A stretch of DNA of 7,952 nucleotides. It comes from an uncultured Clostridia bacterium (lineage in GTDB: Bacteria; Bacillota_A; Clostridia; Oscillospirales; Oscillospiraceae). This document shows positions 1 to 7,952 of this stretch, piece after piece. Location of the stretch: the NCBI GenBank assembly GCA_946405325.1, contig CAMJGU010000033.1, positions 1 to 7,952 of the forward strand, given 5' to 3'. Under the pieces are notes generated by a model, which saw only the letters and a list, made by a program, of their open reading frames with translations, ran no database searches and was not told the DNA's origin. The position numbers and the translations under genes are program-made. The stretch's first letter is position 1, and each line of letters opens with the position of its first letter.

Positions 1-173
1 TGCGCGTCGCGCTCGATCCGGTCGTAGTGCTTCAAAAGCCACGGCTCGATGGCGGCGGTCAGCTTCATGTCGAGGTTGAACATATAGACCGTGAACGTCA
101 CCGCAAAGAGGCCGAGCAGGATCAGCAGGAGCCGAAGGAGGAGCTTTAAGATAAACTTCATCACTTTATTCAT
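1..173 (-). CDS. Small single-span membrane protein, C-terminus cut by window edge
   Basis: I do not recognise a named family. Starting at the ATG at 173-171, 57 codons are visible before the left edge and no stop is reached. The N-terminus is short and basic (MNKVMK), followed by one strongly hydrophobic leucine-rich stretch at about residues 7-32, interrupted by Arg14, which should form a single membrane helix or uncleaved signal anchor. After it comes an amphipathic, charged segment beginning NLDMKL, with IEPWLLKHYDRIERD at about 42-56. The start is set by an AAAGGAG site seven bases upstream. It lies only 15 bp after the stop of the 521-residue dehydratase-family gene with no terminator between, so it is probably the last or a late gene of that operon. 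It could anchor the soluble redox proteins to the membrane, but it could equally be an unrelated conserved small protein. The reading frame is convincing; the function is unknown. Confidence 0.72.
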   Translation of the reverse strand, partial: MNKVMKFILKLLLRLLLILLGLFAVTFTVYMFNLDMKLTAAIEPWLLKHYDRIERDA

Positions 174-180
174 GCTTCCG

Positions 181-187
181 CTCCTTT
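181..187 (-). promoter_or_regulatory. Ribosome binding site of the small membrane protein
   Basis: The minus strand reads AAAGGAG seven bases before the ATG at 173-171. It sits entirely in the 15-bp gap after the preceding stop codon (191-189) and decides the start of the small, edge-truncated gene. Confidence 0.7.
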
Positions 188-188
188 C

Positions 189-1754
189 TTACCACGATTC
201 CTCGTCATGCAGCACCTCGAGCGACGGGTCGATGGGCTCCTCGCGCATGACGGTGCGCATGTAGTTGTTGATCTGGTCGCGCACGCCCTGACGGGAGATG
301 ATGCGCGGGTCGAACAGGTCGTGGGAGACCCAGACGAGGTGGATGCCGAGCTCCCGGGCGCGATCCTCGAACATGCCGTGCATGCCGGTGAGCGCCTTGC
401 AGCTCATGTGCTCCCACAGAATGACCATGTCGGCGTTGAACTGCTGCGTGAACTCCCACAGCTCGTCGAGCAGCACCTTGTAGCCGCCGTGGGTGCGGTT
501 GCGCATGATCATGTTCTCCGTGAGCCACGCCATGTCGTAGATCGCGGTCTCGCGGTTTTCCGGCGTGTCGGTCTCCGCCAGCTCTCGCGTGGAGACCATG
601 GAGAGCATGTCCGTCAGCGGCACGATGCCCCAGCAGTTCAGAAGCCACACCAGGAAGTCCATGTAGTAGTGCGACTGCACGCCCCAGATGATCGCGCGGT
701 GGCGGTACTCCTTCGCCGCGCGTTTCTTCTTCTCGTACGCCTGACGCGCGAGCTTGGAGATCTTGCGGTCCGCCTTCTCAAACGCGGCGATGCGCCCGCA
801 GATCGCCATATAGTTCGTCTCGGTGTAGAGCGCGAGGTTGGAGCCGAACACCTGCGGATACGGCGTGCGGTTCATCTCCAGCCACTCCTGACGGCAGCGG
901 GTGGCGTAGTTGACGCGCTTGGCGCACTCAAAGTACTCCTTCCAGTCCCACTTCGCGCCGGTGTGCTTCTCGATGAACGCGATGGCGTTGCGGATCTCCT
1001 GCGCGGCGTACTCCTGCACGTCGTCCTCGCGGTGGCGCAAGGGAGCTGCGAGCTGGAACACGGGGATGCCGTCCTCGAGCTCGAGGCGGCGGGAAATGAC
1101 GCCGTTGCCGAGGAGCGAGCCGTCGCAGGTGGTGTTGCACTGGATGGCGCAGGCGCCGAGCACCGGCGCGTCGTCGTCGATGGAGACGCCCGCCTCCGCC
1201 TCCGGCATGGGGCACACGTCGCCGGCGAGGCCGAACTCCTGCGCCACGTCGATGTAGTGCTCCGCCGCATGCTGATTGAGCAGCACGGAGACGTAGGTGG
1301 ACGGGGTCTCGCGGCTGAGGCACTTGAGCGTCGGGAAGCCCATCATCACCGCGGTCATCTCGTTCTCGTCGACGAGGACGACCTTCTTGGAAAACTCCGT
1401 GTCGTTGCCGGTGCGGCGGTCGCCGCGGAAGAGGTTGTCGAGCAGCTTCGCCACGTCGTCGATGATGAGGTCCTGCTCCGTGTGGCAGATGCGCAGGTAC
1501 TCCCCGCGCAGGCCCTGCGTGTGGCGGTCGACCATCATCGGCACGGCGAGGTAGTTCGCCATCCAGCGATAGCGGAAGAACGCCTTGACGTTGCGGGGCT
1601 TCATCATGAACTTGCCCAGCGTCCCCATGATGACGAGCCACCGGGAATAATCGTAGAGCGTATCCTCGACGCCGCGCCACTCGCGGCGCTTGCGGACCTT
1701 GCCGCCGTCCTTGTAAAAGTCGCCGAAGCGATCCTTGCCGATCTCTTTAGCCAT
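189..1754 (-). CDS. 2-hydroxyacyl-CoA dehydratase (HGD-D) family protein, large subunit-like, 521 aa
   Basis: This is the second of two neighbouring HGD-D family proteins, related to the HgdA/HadB/FldB-type subunits of [4Fe-4S] 2-hydroxyacyl-CoA dehydratases and to benzoyl-CoA reductase subunits. The family-like part runs from about residue 130 to 505. Candidate cluster ligands are Cys181 (GDVCPMPE), Cys210 in the family's TCD motif (NTTCDGS, with Cys206 nearby) and Cys452 (WEHMSCKAL). A PVFQLAAPLRH segment at 231-241 matches the conserved region after TCD, and VSHDLFDPRI (476-485) resembles the C-terminal Rossmann-like strand. At 521 residues it is longer than the usual 400-480, mainly through a basic, aromatic-rich N-terminal extension of about 130 residues. 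The ATG at 1754 is chosen because AAGGAGG lies nine bases upstream; a further 16 in-frame codons exist upstream but lack a site. Its start overlaps the end of the preceding family member by 8 bp, so the two are probably translated together and form a heterodimer. Substrate unknown. Confidence 0.85.
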   Translation of the reverse strand: MAKEIGKDRFGDFYKDGGKVRKRREWRGVEDTLYDYSRWLVIMGTLGKFMMKPRNVKAFFRYRWMANYLAVPMMVDRHTQGLRGEYLRICHTEQDLIIDDVAKLLDNLFRGDRRTGNDTEFSKKVVLVDENEMTAVMMGFPTLKCLSRETPSTYVSVLLNQHAAEHYIDVAQEFGLAGDVCPMPEAEAGVSIDDDAPVLGACAIQCNTTCDGSLLGNGVISRRLELEDGIPVFQLAAPLRHREDDVQEYAAQEIRNAIAFIEKHTGAKWDWKEYFECAKRVNYATRCRQEWLEMNRTPYPQVFGSNLALYTETNYMAICGRIAAFEKADRKISKLARQAYEKKKRAAKEYRHRAIIWGVQSHYYMDFLVWLLNCWGIVPLTDMLSMVSTRELAETDTPENRETAIYDMAWLTENMIMRNRTHGGYKVLLDELWEFTQQFNADMVILWEHMSCKALTGMHGMFEDRARELGIHLVWVSHDLFDPRIISRQGVRDQINNYMRTVMREEPIDPSLEVLHDEESW

Positions 1755-2952
1755 TTGCCACGCCCTCCTTTTGGATCTTCTTGATCTCCATGCTCTCCAC
1801 AAACGCCTGCACGCGGGTGCGCATCTGACCGGAGGTCGCGATGGAATAGGGACGGTCCACCGCGAGGACGGGATAGCCGAAGTCCTCGCGCAGGATGTGG
1901 GAGCCGAGCATCTTCTCGTACGCCCACGGGTCGCAGAATTTCATCTGCTCGTAGATGATGCCGTCCGCGCCGTACTCCTTCGCGGTGTCCGCGACGTACT
2001 GGCGGCGGCCCTGCATCTTGGGCATATCCATGTAGCGCGGGCACTCGGCGCGCTGCATGTACTGGCGGCAGATCTGCGTCAGCGCGTCCTCGTCGTCGGT
2101 GAGGACGATGGGATCACGCCCGGGCAGCGAGCCGTAGCAGAAGCGGTCGGCACAGACATAGGCGCCGGAATCCTCGATGAGCTTGATGAAGTCGAGGTCG
2201 TCCACCTCGGAGCCGACGACCACGACGCGGGCGCGGTACGGGAACTTCTCGTCCGGCTCGCGGGTCTTGAGCTCTTCGAGCGTCTCCTCGAGCTTGTCGA
2301 TGAGCAGGTACTTCGGACACGCGTAGGTCGCGAGCGTCAGGATGTGGAACTCGTAGCCCGTGATGCGCGGATGCTCGCCCTTGCGGTATTCGCCGATGGC
2401 GCGGATCAGCTCACAGACCTGATTGTGCTCCGCCACCGCCTTGCGGATCGCGGCGTCGGAGGTGTCGATGCCGTAGTGCTCCGCGAGGGGTTTTAAGATA
2501 TGATTCTTGCACTGGAGCACATAGAGGTTGAGGCCGTTGTCATCGCCCTTCATGGGGATCTCCATGTACTCGTAGAAGAAGTTGGGCTTATCCTTGCCCA
2601 TGGTCTTGAGCAGCTCCATGTTCTCCACGCAGCGGTTCATCATCGAGCAGCCGTCCGGCGTGATGATGCAGTCGGCGAAGCTGTAGCCGCCCTCGATGGC
2701 GCGCTCGAGCAGCGCGCGGCTGTACTCGCAGAGGAAACTGGTGAGATAGTACGTCGCGACCTCCATCGACCCCGTGCGCGGTGCGCGCAGGCGCGCGGAG
2801 AACGCGCCGGGCAGGTTCATCAGCGGCTCCGGCGTGTTTTCGCAAGTGTAGGCGACGCAGATCTTGCCGTCCTTTTGCGCCTGTTGGATCAGCTCGTTGT
2901 TGGCCTCCAGCAGGAGATGTTCAAAGTAAATCAGATGCTTGAGATCTTTCAT
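1747..2952 (-). CDS. 2-hydroxyacyl-CoA dehydratase (HGD-D) family protein, small subunit-like, 401 aa
   Basis: This protein resembles the HgdB/HadC/FldC-type subunit of 2-hydroxyacyl-CoA dehydratases and the related BcrB/BcrC and double-cubane proteins, and 401 residues is a normal length. The typical N-terminal block is visible: a Cys-containing strand (YTCENTPEPLMNLPG, 35-49), then Arg54 and Arg56. Likely cluster cysteines are Cys75 (LCEYSRALLE), Cys102 (PDGCSMMNR; Cys95 and Cys108 are alternatives) and Cys340 (MKFCDPWAYE). The segment VVVVGSEVDDLDFIKLIEDSG (about 243-263) followed by VCADRF is characteristic of the C-terminal domain. The ATG at 2952 has an AAGGGGGAG site about five bases upstream. 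The gene follows the Fe-S/FAD oxidoreductase after 42 bp and overlaps the 521-residue partner by 8 bp (ATGGCTAA). Family membership is clear. Whether it dehydrates a 2-hydroxyacyl-CoA, reduces an aromatic or does something else cannot be decided, and no ASKHA-type activator gene is in view. Confidence 0.88.
   Translation of the reverse strand: MKDLKHLIYFEHLLLEANNELIQQAQKDGKICVAYTCENTPEPLMNLPGAFSARLRAPRTGSMEVATYYLTSFLCEYSRALLERAIEGGYSFADCIITPDGCSMMNRCVENMELLKTMGKDKPNFFYEYMEIPMKGDDNGLNLYVLQCKNHILKPLAEHYGIDTSDAAIRKAVAEHNQVCELIRAIGEYRKGEHPRITGYEFHILTLATYACPKYLLIDKLEETLEELKTREPDEKFPYRARVVVVGSEVDDLDFIKLIEDSGAYVCADRFCYGSLPGRDPIVLTDDEDALTQICRQYMQRAECPRYMDMPKMQGRRQYVADTAKEYGADGIIYEQMKFCDPWAYEKMLGSHILREDFGYPVLAVDRPYSIATSGQMRTRVQAFVESMEIKKIQKEGVANG
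1764..1770 (-). promoter_or_regulatory. Ribosome binding site inside the upstream gene, deciding the 1754 start
   Basis: The minus strand reads AAGGAGG, nine bases before the ATG at 1754-1752. The site lies within the last codons of the 401-residue gene, as expected for translationally coupled genes. It argues against the longer frame beginning at 1802. Confidence 0.8.
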
Positions 2953-2994
2953 GCTCTCCCCCTTTTTATTCGGTGCCTGTGGTGCGGTTCCGGA

Positions 2995-5685
2995 TCACTT
3001 CTTGCCCGCCACGCGCGCGGCGATCTTGCCGGTGCGCTTGACGAGATGCTCGGCGACCTTGATGGGCATGGTCTCGAACTCGCCCATGTGCCACTCGCGG
3101 GTCTTTTCGAGGTGGATCGCGTCGAACATGCACTTGGTCGTGCATAGGCCGCAGCCCACGCAGAGGTAGGCATCCACCTTCGTCGCGCCGCACTTGAGAC
3201 AGCGGCTGGTCTCCTGGCGCACCTGCTCCTCGGTAAAGGTGCAGCGGGTGGAGCCGAAGGTCTTTTCCTTGGCGGCGTTGTAGCCGGGGATCTGGCGGCT
3301 GCCGTGGTCATAGCCCTGCGGGTCGACGAGGATGTTGCCCTTGTCGAGCGCGCGGTAGTTGCGGCGGTCGCGGCCGAGCGTCAGCGTCTGACCCTCGTGG
3401 ACGATGCGGTGGAGCGAGATCGCCGCCTCCTTGCCCGCGGCAATGGCGTCGATGATGAACTTCTGTCCGGTGTAGGCGTCGCCGCCGGCAAAGATATCGC
3501 GCTCCGCGGTCTGATAAGTGAGCGGATCCGCCTTGACGAAGCCGCGCTCGGTGAGCTCGACCTTGGTGCCGTCCAGCAGCTTGCCCCAGTCGGTGCGAAG
3601 GCCGATGCAGTAGAGCACCGTCGTGCACTCGGCGGTCTCGGTCTGCGCGTCGTCGAACTTGGGCGCGAATTTGCCGCTCGCGTCCTTGACGGAGAGGCAC
3701 TTGCGGAATTGGATGCCCGCGCACTTGCCGTCCTTGACGATCACTTCCGTCTGGCCCCAGCCGTCGCGGATCTCCACGCCGTCGTGCTTGCACTCGTTCT
3801 GATCCTCTTCGCCCATGGGCATCTCGTCGTAGCTTTCGAGACAGTACAGCGTGACCTTCTCCGCGCCGCAGCGTACCGCCGTGCGGGCGACGTCCGCGCC
3901 GATGCTGCCGCCGCCGATGACGATGACCTTGCCAGAGAGCTTCACGTCCTCGCCCGCGTTGACGCGCTTGACGAAGTCGATGCCCGCGATTACGCCCTCC
4001 GCGTCGTCGCCGGGTACGTGCAATTTGCCGCCGTCCTGCAGGCCGATGGCGAGGTAGAAGCCCTTGTAGCCCTGCTCGCGCAGCTGCGGGATGGTGATAT
4101 CCTTGCCGACCTCGACGCCGCAGCGGAACTCGACGCCCATCTCGCGGAGGATGTCGATCTCCGCCTCGACCACGTCCTTTTCCAGCCGGAAGCCGGGCAG
4201 CCCGTTCATCATCATGCCGCCGGGCTTTTGCGCCTTGTCGAACACGGTGGGGCGATAGCCCTTCATGGCGAGGTAATACGCCGCGGTCATGCCCGCGGGG
4301 CCCGCGCCGATGATGGCGATTTTCTCATCGTAGGGTTTGCCGATCTGGTTGACGAACTTGGGAATTTCGCGGGTCTTGGGGTCGAGCTCCTGCTCGGCGA
4401 TGAAGCGCTTGACCTCGTCGATCGCCACCGCCTCGTCCACGCTGCCGCGGGTGCACTCGGTCTCGCAGCGGTGGTTGCAGACGCGGCCGCAGACCGCGGG
4501 GAACGGATTTTCCTTACGAATGAGCTCGAGCGCTTCTTTATACTTGCCCTGCGCGGCGAGGCGCAGGTAGCCTTGCACGGCGATGTGCGCGGGACATGCG
4601 GTCTTGCACGGCGCGGTGCCGGTCTCGACCACGTCCTCGCGGTTTTCGCGATAGTCCACGTTCCAGTCCTGCTTGCGCCAGATGTGGTGCTCGCTCATCT
4701 TGCGGTAGTCCTTCACCGGCAGCGGCTCCTTGGTGCAGAGCTTCTGACCGAGCTTGAGCGCGTTCGCGGGGCAGTTCTCGACGCACTGGCCGCAGGCGAC
4801 GCACTTCTCCTCGTCGATGACGGCGGTGAAGTTGGAGCGGATCACGTCGCGCGCGCCGTAGAGCATGCCGACGCGCAGACCGAAGCAGGAGCAGGAGCAG
4901 CAGTTGCAGATCGCCGCGCTCTCGCCGACCTCTTCGATGTTCGGCATATCGTGCATGAGGCCGTTGTCCTCGGCGCGCTGGAGAATTTCCAGCACCTCCT
5001 CGCGGCTCACGGGACGGCCGCGGCCGGTGCGGATGTAGTGCTCCGCGCCCTTACCCATCTGGATGCACATGTCCTCCTCCAGATGGCCGCAGCCCTCGCC
5101 GATGGTGCGGCGGGACGCGCGGCAGGAGCAGGGGGAAACGGAGAAGGTGTTGTACTTATTTAAGTAGTAGCTGAGCTTTTCGTCGTCGCGGACGTTGGGA
5201 ATGTCCTTGATGGCGCTCTCAATGGGTACCACGCGCATCAGCCCGGAGCCGTCCGGCATCATCGGCGCCATGGTCGCCATGCGGATGCGGGTGTACTCCT
5301 CGAACGCGCGGGCGACCTCGGGATGGGTGGCGAGCAGCTCCTTGTTGTTCACCAGCATCTCCATGATACCGGGGGCGAAAATCTGCATGTAGAAGCGATC
5401 CTTGCCGTCGGTTGGGTCGGTGGTCACGCGGAACACGCCGATCCACGCCAGATGCTCGGCGAGCTTCTGCGTCTCCTCGATGCTCTTGCCGGTCTTTTTC
5501 GCGAGGTATTCCGTCGTGCGCTCCTTGCGCAAGCCGCAGGCGATGGCGACGTCCGCCTCGTCGTCGGTCAGGATGCCCGCGAGGGAATAGTATTCCGGGG
5601 CGTTTTCGTCGATCTTGTTGACGACGCCGGTCAGGCCGCCGACAACATGACATAGCTTGACGATCTTGGGTCTTAACTGTGCCAT
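2995..5685 (-). CDS. Multi-cluster Fe-S / FAD NAD(P)H oxidoreductase (GltD/NfnB-like), 896 aa
   Basis: A soluble electron-transfer flavoprotein with four parts. Residues 1-180 are a helical, possibly winged-helix-like region. Residues 181-310 are cysteine-dense: SPCSCR (186, 188), Cys199, Cys207, then CNCCSCSC (260-267) and a ferredoxin motif with Cys295, 298, 301 and 305. Residues 355-770 are a glutamate-synthase-small-subunit-like module: Fe-S cysteines 360, 364, 399, 403, 407 and 411, the FAD motif IIGAGPAGMTAAYY (458-471), the pyridine-nucleotide motif VIGGGSIGADVA (589-600) and the FAD-closing IFAGGDAYTG (731-740). Residues 829-852 are a C-terminal ferredoxin motif (Cys829, 832, 842, 845, 848, 852). 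The ATG at 5685 has AAGGAG eight bases upstream; 55 earlier in-frame codons run into hypB and read like shadow sequence. The gene lies 25 bp after hypB and 42 bp before the dehydratase-like pair, so it probably supplies them with electrons. It is not glutamate synthase itself, since no large subunit is nearby. Partner and nucleotide preference are inferred. Confidence 0.88.
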   Translation of the reverse strand: MAQLRPKIVKLCHVVGGLTGVVNKIDENAPEYYSLAGILTDDEADVAIACGLRKERTTEYLAKKTGKSIEETQKLAEHLAWIGVFRVTTDPTDGKDRFYMQIFAPGIMEMLVNNKELLATHPEVARAFEEYTRIRMATMAPMMPDGSGLMRVVPIESAIKDIPNVRDDEKLSYYLNKYNTFSVSPCSCRASRRTIGEGCGHLEEDMCIQMGKGAEHYIRTGRGRPVSREEVLEILQRAEDNGLMHDMPNIEEVGESAAICNCCSCSCFGLRVGMLYGARDVIRSNFTAVIDEEKCVACGQCVENCPANALKLGQKLCTKEPLPVKDYRKMSEHHIWRKQDWNVDYRENREDVVETGTAPCKTACPAHIAVQGYLRLAAQGKYKEALELIRKENPFPAVCGRVCNHRCETECTRGSVDEAVAIDEVKRFIAEQELDPKTREIPKFVNQIGKPYDEKIAIIGAGPAGMTAAYYLAMKGYRPTVFDKAQKPGGMMMNGLPGFRLEKDVVEAEIDILREMGVEFRCGVEVGKDITIPQLREQGYKGFYLAIGLQDGGKLHVPGDDAEGVIAGIDFVKRVNAGEDVKLSGKVIVIGGGSIGADVARTAVRCGAEKVTLYCLESYDEMPMGEEDQNECKHDGVEIRDGWGQTEVIVKDGKCAGIQFRKCLSVKDASGKFAPKFDDAQTETAECTTVLYCIGLRTDWGKLLDGTKVELTERGFVKADPLTYQTAERDIFAGGDAYTGQKFIIDAIAAGKEAAISLHRIVHEGQTLTLGRDRRNYRALDKGNILVDPQGYDHGSRQIPGYNAAKEKTFGSTRCTFTEEQVRQETSRCLKCGATKVDAYLCVGCGLCTTKCMFDAIHLEKTREWHMGEFETMPIKVAEHLVKRTGKIAARVAGKK

Positions 5686-5693
5686 ATCGATTT

Positions 5694-5699
5694 CTCCTT
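5694..5699 (-). promoter_or_regulatory. Ribosome binding site of the Fe-S/FAD oxidoreductase
   Basis: The minus strand reads AAGGAG, eight bases before the ATG at 5685-5683, inside the 25-bp gap after hypB. It fixes the start well downstream of the longest open frame, which begins at 5850. Confidence 0.8.
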
Positions 5700-5710
5700 C
5701 TCCCAAAAAA

Positions 5711-6379
5711 TTATTTCTTCCAGTCGTTGACCTGCTTGCGCAGCCAGTCGATCCACTTGTCCATACCCTCGCCGGTCTTGGCGGAGATCGGGAATATCTC
5801 GAGGCCGGGGTGGCGCATGTGCGCGAACTCCGTGACCTTATCGAGGTCAAAGTCGAAGTAGGGCAGCACGTCGATCTTGTTGATGATCAGCACGTCCGCC
5901 ACCTCAAACATCAGCGGATACTTGAGCGGCTTGTCGTGTCCCTCGGGCACGGAGAGGATGACGGCGTTTTTCACCGCGCCGGTGTCGAACTCCGCGGGAC
6001 AGACGAGGTTGCCCACGTTTTCGAGGATCACAAGGTCGAGGTCCTCCGTACCGAACTCGGTGAGCCCCTGACGGGTCATGTCCGCGTCCAGGTGGCACAT
6101 GCCGCCGGTGTGGATCTGGATCGCCCGCGCGCCGGTCTCCAGGATCGCGGCGGCGTCCACGTCGGAGTCGATGTCCGCCTCCATGACGCCGATGCGCAGC
6201 TCGTCCTTCAGCGCGCCGATGGTCTTTTTCAGGGTGCTGGTCTTGCCGGAGCCGGGGGACGACATCACGTTGAGCAGGAACGTGCCCTGCTTCTTGAGCT
6301 GCCCGCGCAGGCGGTCAGCGTCCGCGTTGTTGTCCGCGAAGATGCTCTCCTTGACTTCGATGACGCGAATAGGGTCCAT
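5711..6379 (-). CDS. hypB: HypB-like metal-binding GTPase, 222 aa, without N-terminal nickel motif
   Basis: HypB is a SIMIBI-class GTPase that delivers nickel during [NiFe]-hydrogenase maturation. Visible here are the P-loop SPGSGKT (41-47), ADIDSDVDA (69-77), GGMCHLDADM (92-101), ENVGNLVCPAEFD (120-132), the guanine motif NKID (167-170) and SAKTGEG (199-205). Cys95, His96 and Cys127 match the GTPase-domain metal site of E. coli HypB (Cys166, His167, Cys198). The N-terminal CxxCGC nickel motif and a histidine-rich tract are both absent, as in many Gram-positive HypBs. The ATG at 6379 has AGGAGG seven bases upstream. An earlier in-frame ATG at 6409 falls at the predicted transcription start, and the one at 6442 overlaps the -35 box. 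It is the first gene of the operon, ahead of the oxidoreductase and dehydratase-like pair. No hydrogenase, hypA or other hyp gene is seen, so a role in maturing or activating the operon's own metalloenzyme is possible. The family call is firm; the client is not known. Confidence 0.9.
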   Translation of the reverse strand: MDPIRVIEVKESIFADNNADADRLRGQLKKQGTFLLNVMSSPGSGKTSTLKKTIGALKDELRIGVMEADIDSDVDAAAILETGARAIQIHTGGMCHLDADMTRQGLTEFGTEDLDLVILENVGNLVCPAEFDTGAVKNAVILSVPEGHDKPLKYPLMFEVADVLIINKIDVLPYFDFDLDKVTEFAHMRHPGLEIFPISAKTGEGMDKWIDWLRKQVNDWKK

Positions 6380-6386
6380 AACGTTT

Positions 6387-6392
6387 CCTCCT
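6387..6392 (-). promoter_or_regulatory. Ribosome binding site of hypB
   Basis: The minus strand reads AGGAGG, a full consensus, seven bases before the ATG at 6379-6377. It selects this start over two upstream in-frame ATGs. Confidence 0.85.
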
Positions 6393-6393
6393 G

Positions 6394-6458
6394 TTGCACA
6401 TTTGCTCATGCTAATTATAACAGGAGACGCCGCTGTTTTCAATCCGCTTTTTGTGCAA
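6394..6458 (-). repeat. Short inverted repeat (TTGCACA / TGTGCAA) flanking the hypB promoter
   Basis: On the plus strand TTGCACA at 6394-6400 and TGTGCAA at 6452-6458 are exact reverse complements, seven bases each and 51 bp apart. One arm lies just downstream of the expected transcription start and the other just upstream of the -35 box. This could be a pair of operator half-sites, but seven-base arms at this distance may arise by chance. Confidence 0.25.
6414..6442 (-). promoter_or_regulatory. Sigma-A-type promoter of the hypB operon with extended -10
   Basis: On the minus strand the -35 box is TTGAAA (6442-6437), the spacer is exactly 17 bp and the -10 box is a perfect TATAAT (6419-6414). 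It is preceded by TG at the extended -10 position (TGTTATAAT). Transcription should start near 6407, leaving a leader of about 28 nt before the hypB ATG. It lies directly after the rpiB terminator, so the five downstream genes form an independent unit. Confidence 0.85.
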
Positions 6459-6465
6459 ATCAGTC

Positions 6466-6500
6466 AAAAAAATTTCCCACCCGGGGGGGTGGGAAATTTT
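6466..6500 (-). terminator. Strong rho-independent terminator after rpiB
   Basis: A perfect 14-bp stem (6500-6487 pairing with 6482-6469) closes a four-base loop (CCCC on the minus strand). The minus-strand transcript ends in a run of seven U residues, four of which lie in the stem. It starts 15 bp after the rpiB stop codon. The stem is AT-rich at its base and GC-rich at its tip. The A/T symmetry would allow weak action on the plus strand too, but no plus-strand gene approaches it. Confidence 0.92.
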
Positions 6501-6515: not shown

Positions 6516-6980
6516 TCATTCGCCGCGGGAGGCCAGTGCCTGCGTCTGCTCAATCTCGGTGATGAGCGCGACGCGGTCGGCGTGGCGGCCGCCCTCGAAC
6601 TTGGCGTTCAGCCACTCGTCCACGATCATCTTCGCGGTCTCGTCGCCGATGACGCGCGCACCGAAGGCGATGATGTTCGTGTTGTTGTGCTGCTTGGAGA
6701 GCTTCGCGGTGTAGGGATCGCTGCACACGCAGGCGCGGATGCCCTTGACCTTGTTCGCCGCGAGGCTGATGCCGACGCCGGTGCCGCAGATCAGCACGCC
6801 GCCGTCCACCTCGCCCGCCGCAACCAGCTTCGCAACGCGGTAGCCCGCGATGGGATAGTCGAAGCGCTCGCTGGTGTCCGTGCCGACGTTGACGACCTCG
6901 ATGCCCTTGCCCTTGAGGTAGTCCATGATCGTGTTCTTCATTTCGACCGCCGCGTGGTCGTTGCCGATGGCCAGTTTCAT
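6516..6980 (-). CDS. rpiB: Ribose-5-phosphate isomerase B, 154 aa
   Basis: RpiB interconverts ribose 5-phosphate and ribulose 5-phosphate in the cytosolic non-oxidative pentose phosphate pathway; some relatives act on allose 6-phosphate. The full family pattern is present: GNDHAA near the N-terminus (Asp8, His9), DYP at 41-43, the catalytic-cysteine loop LICGTGVGISLAANK (63-77, Cys65), KLSKQHNNTN with His98, AFGARVIG (105-112) and EGGRHADRV (129-137) with phosphate-binding basic residues. At 154 residues it has the usual length of about 145-155. The ATG at 6980 has AGGAGG eight bases upstream. It has its own promoter and a strong terminator, so it appears to be a single-gene unit functionally separate from the downstream redox operon. 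Confidence 0.95.
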   Translation of the reverse strand: MKLAIGNDHAAVEMKNTIMDYLKGKGIEVVNVGTDTSERFDYPIAGYRVAKLVAAGEVDGGVLICGTGVGISLAANKVKGIRACVCSDPYTAKLSKQHNNTNIIAFGARVIGDETAKMIVDEWLNAKFEGGRHADRVALITEIEQTQALASRGE

Positions 6981-7011: not shown

Positions 7012-7041
7012 ATTGTAGTACGGACAGCGGGGAAAAGTCAA
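7012..7041 (-). promoter_or_regulatory. Probable sigma-A promoter of rpiB
   Basis: On the minus strand TTGACT (7041-7036) and TACAAT (7017-7012) are each one mismatch from consensus and are separated by 18 bp. The -35 box includes the TGA stop of the upstream transporter gene. The predicted start near 7005 gives a leader of about 25 nt. No terminator hairpin is visible after the transporter gene, so some read-through into rpiB is also possible. Confidence 0.65.
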
Positions 7042-7952
7042 TTCTTCGCCGCGTCCTTCTGCTTGATGTAAAGGTAGATGCCGAGGATCACCACCGCGCC
7101 GCCGACGACCTGATTGACGGTCGGCAGCTCCGAGAGCAGGAGCAGCGCCCAGGTGGCGGAGAGCACCGGCTGGAACAGCTTGATGACGGCGACCAGCGTG
7201 GGGCTTAAGTACTTGAACGACCAGTTGAAGATGCTGTGCCCCAGCAGACTGTTGAACACCGCCATCAAAAAGCCCATGAGATAGTTGATCCAGCCGTAGC
7301 CCGTCAGCGAGTAGGGCGAGAACAGCACCATCACCGTCAGCACGATTGCGGACGTGCCGTAGACCAGAAAGGTGTAGACCGTGTTCGATACGCCGGTGCG
7401 CACCCTGGTGCCGACGAGCGAGTAGCCCGCCTGCATCGCCGCCGCCAGAATCCCGCAGAGGTTTCCGAACAGCATCCCGCCGTCGGCGGAAAAGCCGCCG
7501 GGGGTGTACGCCACCAGCAGCGCGCCGAGCAGCGCGACCGCGATGCCCGCCTTGCCCCAGACGCCGTAGCGCTCGCGTCCCGTGAGCGCCATCACCAGCG
7601 CCACGAACAGTACCTCCGTGCCGACGAGCACCTGCGACGCCGTCACCGTCGTGTTGTTCACCGAGAGGAAATACGTCCAGAAGTGGATCGCGAGAAACGT
7701 GCCGCTGAGCAGGCACCAGAGCACGGTCCCTTTCGTCAGCGAGCGCAGCTCCCGCCGCCGCTCCGGACTGCCGAACACCGCGGGGACGAGCAGCAGCGTG
7801 ACAAAGATCTTGCGGTACGCCGCCAGCACCAGCGACGGCGCGTTGCTCCAGCGCACGAAGAGCGACGCGGTGGAGACAAAGAACACCGCCAGCCATACCA
7901 GCGCCAGCGCGCGGCGGCGCTGACTGCGTTCGGGCGCGATTTCGGCGCGTTC
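7038..7952 (-). CDS. EamA/DMT-family transporter, N-terminus cut by window edge
   Basis: A polytopic inner-membrane protein of the drug/metabolite transporter superfamily, expected to have ten helices in two EamA repeats and to export or exchange a small metabolite. The frame is open to the right edge, giving 304 visible residues. The first 22 (ending RRRALALVWLA) precede the first possible GTG start and run smoothly into helix 1, so the true start is probably just outside the window. The first repeat spans about visible residues 15-138, with the typical AAYRKIFVTLLL and the helix-3/4 region HFWTYFLSVNNTTVTASQVL. The second spans about 150-296 and includes HSIFNWSFKYLSPTLVAVIKLFQPVLSA-type residues near 239-266 and a final helix GGAVVILGIYLYIKQK. 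The substrate cannot be predicted. It stands 57 bp upstream of rpiB with no clear functional link. Confidence 0.9.
   Translation of the reverse strand, partial: ERAEIAPERSQRRRALALVWLAVFFVSTASLFVRWSNAPSLVLAAYRKIFVTLLLVPAVFGSPERRRELRSLTKGTVLWCLLSGTFLAIHFWTYFLSVNNTTVTASQVLVGTEVLFVALVMALTGRERYGVWGKAGIAVALLGALLVAYTPGGFSADGGMLFGNLCGILAAAMQAGYSLVGTRVRTGVSNTVYTFLVYGTSAIVLTVMVLFSPYSLTGYGWINYLMGFLMAVFNSLLGHSIFNWSFKYLSPTLVAVIKLFQPVLSATWALLLLSELPTVNQVVGGAVVILGIYLYIKQKDAAKN

Follow-up and report, generated by a model that had tools for sequence, protein, structure and literature searches.

A hypB-led operon of an uncultured Clostridia bacterium that probably combines an IsrA-like oxidoreductase with an activator-driven, benzoyl-CoA-reductase-like HGD-D pair

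The class I benzoyl-CoA reductases BzdNOPQ (Aromatoleum) and MbdONPQ consist of two HGD-D subunits and an ASKHA activator with separate P and Q subunits, and a putative NADPH:ferredoxin oxidoreductase, BzdV, is listed with BzdNOPQ in the excerpted text of PMC5658619. The 2-hydroxyacyl-CoA dehydratases HadBC and HgdAB have a single-gene ASKHA activator and a beta subunit whose cluster is reduced, with loss of double-cubane ligands, and the double-cubane cluster protein (DCCP) is a homodimer (PMC11971306, excerpted text). IsrA is the putative nickel-dependent isoprene reductase of the isr operon of Acetobacterium wieringae (Kronen et al., 2023). According to the main text of that paper (PMC10134865), it has 901 aa, FAD/NAD, PF14691 and two more ferredoxin-type sites; in its Cys6 site, CxC pairs stand at 180/182 and 254/256, and these four cysteines are the only ones numbered for IsrA itself. 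Among 988 homologues, HypA was nearby in 73% and HypB in 56%. Here we describe a stretch of 7,952 nucleotides (the window; contig CAMJGU010000033.1 of assembly GCA_946405325.1) from an uncultured Clostridia bacterium of the Oscillospiraceae, in which hypB, an IsrA-like oxidoreductase gene, two HGD-D genes (D1 and D2) and a gene for a small protein (smp) form an operon:

5711..6379, minus strand: hypB, nickel-binding GTPase, HypB equivalog of 222 aa (TIGR00073, 250.5 bits against a cut-off of 121.2)
5999..6097, minus strand: nickel site CHxnC of the HypB G domain, residues 95-127, Cys95-His96 ... Cys127 (from residue positions and the published motif)
2995..5685, minus strand: IsrA-like NAD(P)H/FAD/Fe-S oxidoreductase, 896 aa (PF14691, PF07992, Fer4; alignment of homologues; layout checked against IsrA as published)
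4885..5130, minus strand: Cys6 site of the oxidoreductase, C186, C188, C207, C260, C262 and C267, without variation in the 10 homologues aligned
1747..2952, minus strand: hgdD1, BzdN-like subunit with six [8Fe-9S] cysteine positions, 37, 75, 102, 272, 304 and 340 (PF06050, 288.7 bits; BzdN the best PDB match, E 6e-33)
189..1754, minus strand: hgdD2, BzdO/HadB-like subunit whose N terminus carries an additional helical region; C181, C210, C374 and C452 are invariant (PF06050)
1..173, minus strand: smp, small protein resembling a single-transmembrane protein, 57 aa up to the left edge (homologue in 78 of 80 related loci; transmembrane segment judged by eye)

We read this operon, with moderate confidence, as two units, a HypB-served IsrA-like oxidoreductase and a BzdNO-like HGD-D pair that would act as a reductase driven by ATP and an activator. 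The set of nickel-enzyme helpers alongside the pair was unexpected. No open-access paper describing this module was found, and none that treats nickel together with 2-hydroxyacyl-CoA dehydratase, in searches that covered the synonyms in part.

Both HGD-D proteins belong to PF06050. The six cysteine positions of D1 were kept in all 23 aligned D1 proteins and coincide, as positions only, with the [8Fe-9S] ligands Cys36, Cys73, Cys100, Cys263, Cys293 and Cys327 of BzdN, whereas in the same alignment two of these columns are occupied in HadC by Pro35 and Ala261. In D2, C181, C210, C374 and C452 were invariant in 24 of 24 aligned proteins; the D1 set is smaller by one, the C-type D1 of locus L151 being incomplete in its stretch and omitted. 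C181 and C452 align with Cys95 and Cys380 of BzdO, whose published [4Fe-4S] ligands are residues 95, 128 and 380; at least two of the three catalytic cysteines of the O-type subunit may have a counterpart, the match at Cys380 being a segment of 0.2 bits. Since D1 keeps all six [8Fe-9S] positions of BzdN, the pair appears to resemble BzdNO, and a net reductase is favoured over a dehydratase, as the preliminary description of this DNA had proposed.

The bit scores against curated models remained below their cut-offs, namely 92.3 against 453.8, far below, for D1 with the bzdN equivalog model TIGR03190, 126.7 against 350 for the DCCP model NF040772, and, likewise far below, 20.3 against 750 and 77.1 against 700 for HadB and HadC. 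DCCP has cysteines at all six columns aligned with D1 but is a homodimer, whereas two different subunits are encoded here. Compared with BzdNOPQ and MbdONPQ, D2 carries an N-terminal helical extension and the fourth invariant cysteine, Cys374, and the system has extra partners, namely a CooC-like ATPase, a protein resembling the A2 domain of acetyl-CoA synthase (ACS), the small transmembrane protein and HypA/HypB.

To place the window among its relatives, contigs from one genome per species were scanned for D2, which gave 195 relatives, and the best 80 were kept as loci. Their records are mostly labelled as rumen and gut Oscillospiraceae, Butyrivibrio, Mogibacterium, Lachnospiraceae and unplaced Clostridia, and one as Spirochaetales. 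The closest is L001, with 93.3% DNA identity to the window over 7.0 kb, and L004 has 89.2% over 6.2 kb; all three have the hypB-led operon layout. In the flanks of the 80 loci, D1 was found in 77 and a smp homologue in 78 (one match, L149:12634, is spurious), while the oxidoreductase was found in 30 (28 with another calling of open reading frames), HypA in 21, the activator in 15, p241 (the ACS-like protein) in 14, the CooC-like ATPase in 11 and HypB in 4. Downstream of D2, within 400 bp, the recognised gene nearest to it was smp in 65 loci and the activator in 12. Of the 39 loci that extend 8 kb or more upstream and 3.5 kb or more downstream, three had HypB and five the activator. These counts indicate that D1-D2-smp is the constant core, with HypB as well as the activator varying as neighbours; a conserved neighbourhood of hypB and the HGD-D pair, whose lack the preliminary description had named as speaking against its proposal, was not borne out.

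The activator is missing from the 7,952 bases of the window, as had been noted before, but not from related genomes. In L004, an HgdC-type activator (8061-8861; PF01869, 197.9 bits) lies 19 bp beyond smp, and locus L062 holds the single run cooC-D1-D2-activator-smp-p241-oxr-hypA, whose activator scored 212.6 bits with TIGR00241 (cut-off 125.4). In the genome of L001 (G001), as in the Butyrivibrio genomes G003-G007, it was found at another locus, adjoining a second HGD-D pair. Whole-genome tests were made on 48 genomes picked from the 80 loci, mainly those with longer contigs, and on two genomes, G167 and G183, from a class sample of 196 Clostridia genomes; 46 of these 50 carriers had an activator match at E <=1e-60, 42 of them above 500 bits and four partial. 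Where an activator was found in an operon, it was a single gene, of the TIGR00241 type as in HadBC and HgdAB, rather than the P and Q subunits of BzdNOPQ and MbdONPQ. Ten other aligned activators were 74-97% identical to that of L004, while the D2 proteins of two further pair types (B and C) share only 34-39% identity with the window's D2, which suggests that one activator may serve all pairs of a genome. Beyond smp, where L004 has the activator, L001 has a sensor-regulator pair (11844-15938) that we take to resemble KdpD/KdpE. In L058, the activator between D2 and smp (about 1556-1829) appears truncated or broken up, and the genome, G229, had no activator match at E 1e-60.

The pair types were compared in Butyrivibrio, where G003-G007 carry three HGD-D pairs each. 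Pair A is of the window's type, pair B lies in the order cooC-D1-D2-activator-smp-p241 followed by an old-yellow-enzyme-type flavoprotein, and pair C, divergent from B, is D1-D2-smp; in two of these genomes, gene calling gave no smp for type B. The smp homologues are alignable across the three types. In a tree of 24 D2 proteins, types A, B and C were separate, each with a bootstrap of at least 98, and the divergent sequences of G167 and G183 stood on long branches with unsure placement. G002 has five pairs of HGD-D matches and a single one, not all classified, and G008 has one pair. Flavoproteins of the old yellow enzyme family (PF00724 and PF07992, 649-687 aa) occur at or near the end of B-type or single-pair operons, at L103:4414-6477, L151:9762-11822, L148:14875-16824 and L150:706-2757. 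L148 (G167:C1:555001-572000) holds a divergent single pair on a contig of 3.39 Mb, in a genome with two genes for nickel carbon monoxide dehydrogenase (Ni-CODH); the pair is preceded by a GAF/PAS protein and a regulator that is presumably of the sigma-54 type.

For the first unit, the HypB of the window exceeded the equivalog cut-off with the Cys95-His96/Cys127 nickel site kept, which is the G-domain CHxnC motif described in the main text of PMC10134865. The oxidoreductase has the features of the IsrA type, with about 900 aa, a FAD/NAD(P) domain (PF07992), Fer4_20 (PF14691), ferredoxin-type sites, an N-terminal domain of about 270 aa and a Cys6 site with two CxC, and it adjoins hypB. Both CxC pairs (C186/C188 and C260/C262) are shifted by six residues relative to the IsrA numbering and are thus equally spaced. 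In length, domains and Cys6 site the protein agrees with IsrA, whose family lies near HypA and HypB. HypB is therefore best read as its putative nickel chaperone, and the metal-loading role previously suggested for the GTPase agrees with this. A difference is that the window's oxidoreductase shares its operon with an HGD-D pair, while the main text of the isoprene paper (PMC10134865) mentions none.

At the genome level, HypB was over the cut-off in 45 of the 50 carriers, and HypA was present in all eight genomes checked. The IsrA-like N-terminal domain was found in 48 of 48 carriers compared to 14 of the 196 class-sample genomes, five of the 19 matching genomes there having been excluded as not IsrA-like (below 65 bits); 11 of the 192 Clostridia genomes without the D2 family have it. 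A NiFe-hydrogenase match was absent in 29 of 48 carriers. In G001 and G002, the near relatives of the window, HypA was present, with no match to NiFe-hydrogenase and none to Ni-CODH; on the lack of a NiFe-hydrogenase match in these two relatives, we rejected HypB as a hydrogenase factor in this lineage. In Butyrivibrio G003 (C5, locus L111), a second HypA adjoins a protein that we take to be LarC-like, which would give HypA a possible further nickel client in this genus.

The remaining partners lie outside the window and resemble parts of the CODH/ACS system. The CooC-like ATPase matched CooC (E 1.5e-17) and has GKGGVGKT and the CxC as there; the CYC motif is aligned, and all 27 copies counted, those with 50% identity or more, have it. 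The p241 protein, of about 240 aa, matched ACS in a profile search against 3git (E 3.7e-5), limited to about positions 308-490 of ACS, a region that is presumably the A2 domain. Its fold gave ACS or CODH/ACS entries at all of Foldseek ranks 1-22 (best E 7e-9). Unlike ACS, it is without the A1 and A3 domains, and it ends in a CxxCx5C that was invariant in 11 of 11. The D2 family was found in four of the 196 class-sample genomes (five of the nine matching genomes were below 40 bits and set aside as generic HGD-D), and p241 in exactly those four, an overlap inflated by kinship, since two of them are Butyrivibrio and one (G003) is the sample centre. Furthermore, p241 was present in 46 of the 48 carriers, one as a fragment of 32 positions. 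One copy (G211:C96:15280-15996) has an in-frame TGA.

We considered p241 and CooC as remnants of a CODH/ACS pathway and rejected this, since Ni-CODH over the cut-off was absent in 49 of the 50 genomes, including all 48 drawn from the loci; G167 is the exception, and matches below the cut-off were found in G229 (partial) and G205 (three weak). In L150, L151, L153, L154, L156 and L158, a gene resembling htpG is found next to cooC or to the smp of pair C; the L156 copy, the only one scanned, is an Hsp90 (PF00183). This suggests a chaperone dedicated to the HGD-D module.

In the mechanism that we propose, HypB and HypA, the latter encoded elsewhere in relatives, would load nickel, for which the oxidoreductase's Cys6 site is the most likely destination. 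D1 and D2 would form a heterodimer of the class I benzoyl-CoA reductase kind, kept near the membrane by smp. An ASKHA activator common to all pairs, encoded in the same operon or at another locus, would hydrolyse ATP and give single low-potential electrons, and by analogy with BzdNO these would pass to the predicted double-cubane [8Fe-9S] cluster in D1 and on to a putative [4Fe-4S] site in D2, where the substrate would be reduced. The CooC-like ATPase and the ACS-A2-domain-like protein, which are regular genomic partners, would probably act in cluster maturation. The oxidoreductase may work in that pathway as well. It would then be either an ene-reductase acting on the unsaturated product or substrate, or an NAD(P)H:ferredoxin donor by which the activator is reduced again.

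The preliminary description had instead held that no ASKHA activator is involved and that the HypB GTPase and the NAD(P)H oxidoreductase jointly drive electrons into the HGD-D pair. The shared operon layout of the window, L001 and L004 and the frequency of HypB among the carriers fit this idea, but the activator stands 19 bp beyond smp in L004, in the flanks of 15 loci and in 46 of 50 genomes, hypB stands in only four flanks, and G183 has the module with an activator and no HypB match. As far as relatives show, the presence of the activator defeats the replacement, which we regard as extremely improbable; the activator lies directly past the position of the window's left edge in L004, although in the closest relative, L001, it is at another locus. 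A narrower proposal gives the IsrA-like protein no organic substrate and makes it only an NAD(P)H-to-ferredoxin or activator donor in the manner of BzdV. The listing of BzdV with BzdNOPQ (PMC5658619, excerpted text) keeps this alive, the likeness of BzdV to the window protein being one of presumed role, and the occurrence of an IsrA-like protein in all 48 carriers agrees with it. On the other hand, a simple donor would presumably need neither the Cys6 site nor the hyp genes, IsrA-like proteins occur in genomes without the D2 family (11 of 192), and G183 has a pair without the full-length protein; we consider the donor role quite possible, at somewhat less than even chances.

The HGD-D pair could also be a HadBC-like 2-hydroxyacyl-CoA dehydratase of a reductive pathway, followed by ene-reduction. 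The single TIGR00241-type activator gene, the fold score of D2, which ties between BzdO and HadB, and the old-yellow-enzyme-family flavoproteins (PF00724; four scanned) at or near B-type operons are in line with such a pathway. The six [8Fe-9S] positions kept in D1, two of them Pro or Ala in HadC, and the scores far below the HadB and HadC cut-offs argue against it, and we hold it to be unlikely. Further from the data is the speculation that the HGD-D pairs are themselves Ni-Fe-S enzymes, loaded with nickel by the CooC-like ATPase, the free-standing ACS-A2 protein and HypA/HypB, D2 having the fourth invariant cysteine, Cys374. They would then be a family of ATP-driven, membrane-tethered reductases, with several paralogues per cell, hydrogenating unsaturated substrates such as conjugated fatty acids in rumen and gut Clostridia; we think this distinctly improbable. 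Fatty-acid biohydrogenation has no sequence evidence and was rejected as an assigned function, being kept as a lead only. We know of no gene assigned to the Butyrivibrio reductase of Hughes and colleagues. The lead is based on that enzyme (Hughes et al., 1982, as cited in the excerpted text of PMC4478896), on the IsrA precedent and on the presence, in two Acetobacterium species, of an oleate hydratase close to IsrA homologues (main text of PMC10134865).

Several observations weigh against the two-unit reading that we prefer. C210 of D2 aligns with Cys129 of BzdO, one residue off the ligand Cys128, and the Cys380 match is the 0.2-bit segment mentioned above. Because BzdO and HadB tie, in a search that barely covered the first 80 or so residues of D2, the reaction cannot be told from the fold alone. 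The likeness of the oxidoreductase to IsrA is judged from the published description of IsrA. A NiFe-hydrogenase-family match, and thus a possible HypA/HypB client, was found in 19 of 48 carriers, the 19 matches covering the first 70 or so positions of the family (one also a later stretch). L158 (G224) has cooC-activator-p241 and L155 (G218) cooC-p241 without an adjacent HGD-D pair, which argues against tight coupling and slightly lowers our confidence. G183 carries the D2 module and an activator with no match to HypB and no full-length IsrA-like protein, so that the two units are separable. Finally, no activator was found at E 1e-60 in four of the 50 genomes (G208, G218, G229 and G234), many of the genomes being fragmentary metagenome-assembled genomes.

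The operon boundaries were also analysed. The five genes lie on the minus strand with gaps of 25, 42, -8 and 15 bp in the order hypB, oxidoreductase, D1, D2, smp, and smp, which starts at 173, is incomplete at the left edge of the window. This arrangement and the strong promoter given in the preliminary description were all reproduced from the reading-frame coordinates and from the promoter score against shuffles. Two elements lie upstream of hypB:

6414..6442, minus strand: sigma-70-type promoter TTGAAA-17-TATAAT, its -10 preceded by TG (match at 11 of the 12 consensus positions)
6469..6500, minus strand: hairpin and T-run, probable rpiB terminator, which parts rpiB from the operon (RNAfold)

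The 11/12 score was reached by no dinucleotide shuffle of the window (0 of 200) or of the intergenic stretch (0 of 1000), while at a threshold of 9/12 the two matches in the window were at chance level (1.4 in shuffles). The promoter counterpart in L001 is TTGAAA-TATCAT; the upstream region of L004 aligns poorly with the window, and no promoter was identified there. The hairpin has a 14-bp stem and a 4-nt loop in the first 32 bases of 6500-6441 (-24.8 kcal/mol for all 60 bases) and was not listed by the terminator scan. The terminator-like matches of that scan were at chance (5 in the window against 5.3 in shuffles), and they include a weak stem of five pairs within hgdD1 on the operon strand. 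Upstream of the operon, rpiB (6516-6980) and an EamA-family transporter gene (7038-7952) lie on the minus strand, and rpiB precedes hypB in L001 and L004 as well.

If the two-unit reading is true, rumen and gut Clostridia, including cultured Butyrivibrio, would carry several ATP-driven low-potential reductases with a common activator. Parts derived from CODH/ACS, the CooC-like ATPase and the ACS A2 domain, would have been acquired in genomes where no Ni-CODH was found. Moreover, the use of nickel by the HGD-D/benzoyl-CoA-reductase superfamily, and the identity of the enzymes for reductive steps in these bacteria, such as the hydrogenation of conjugated dienes, would become questions that can be tested in culture.

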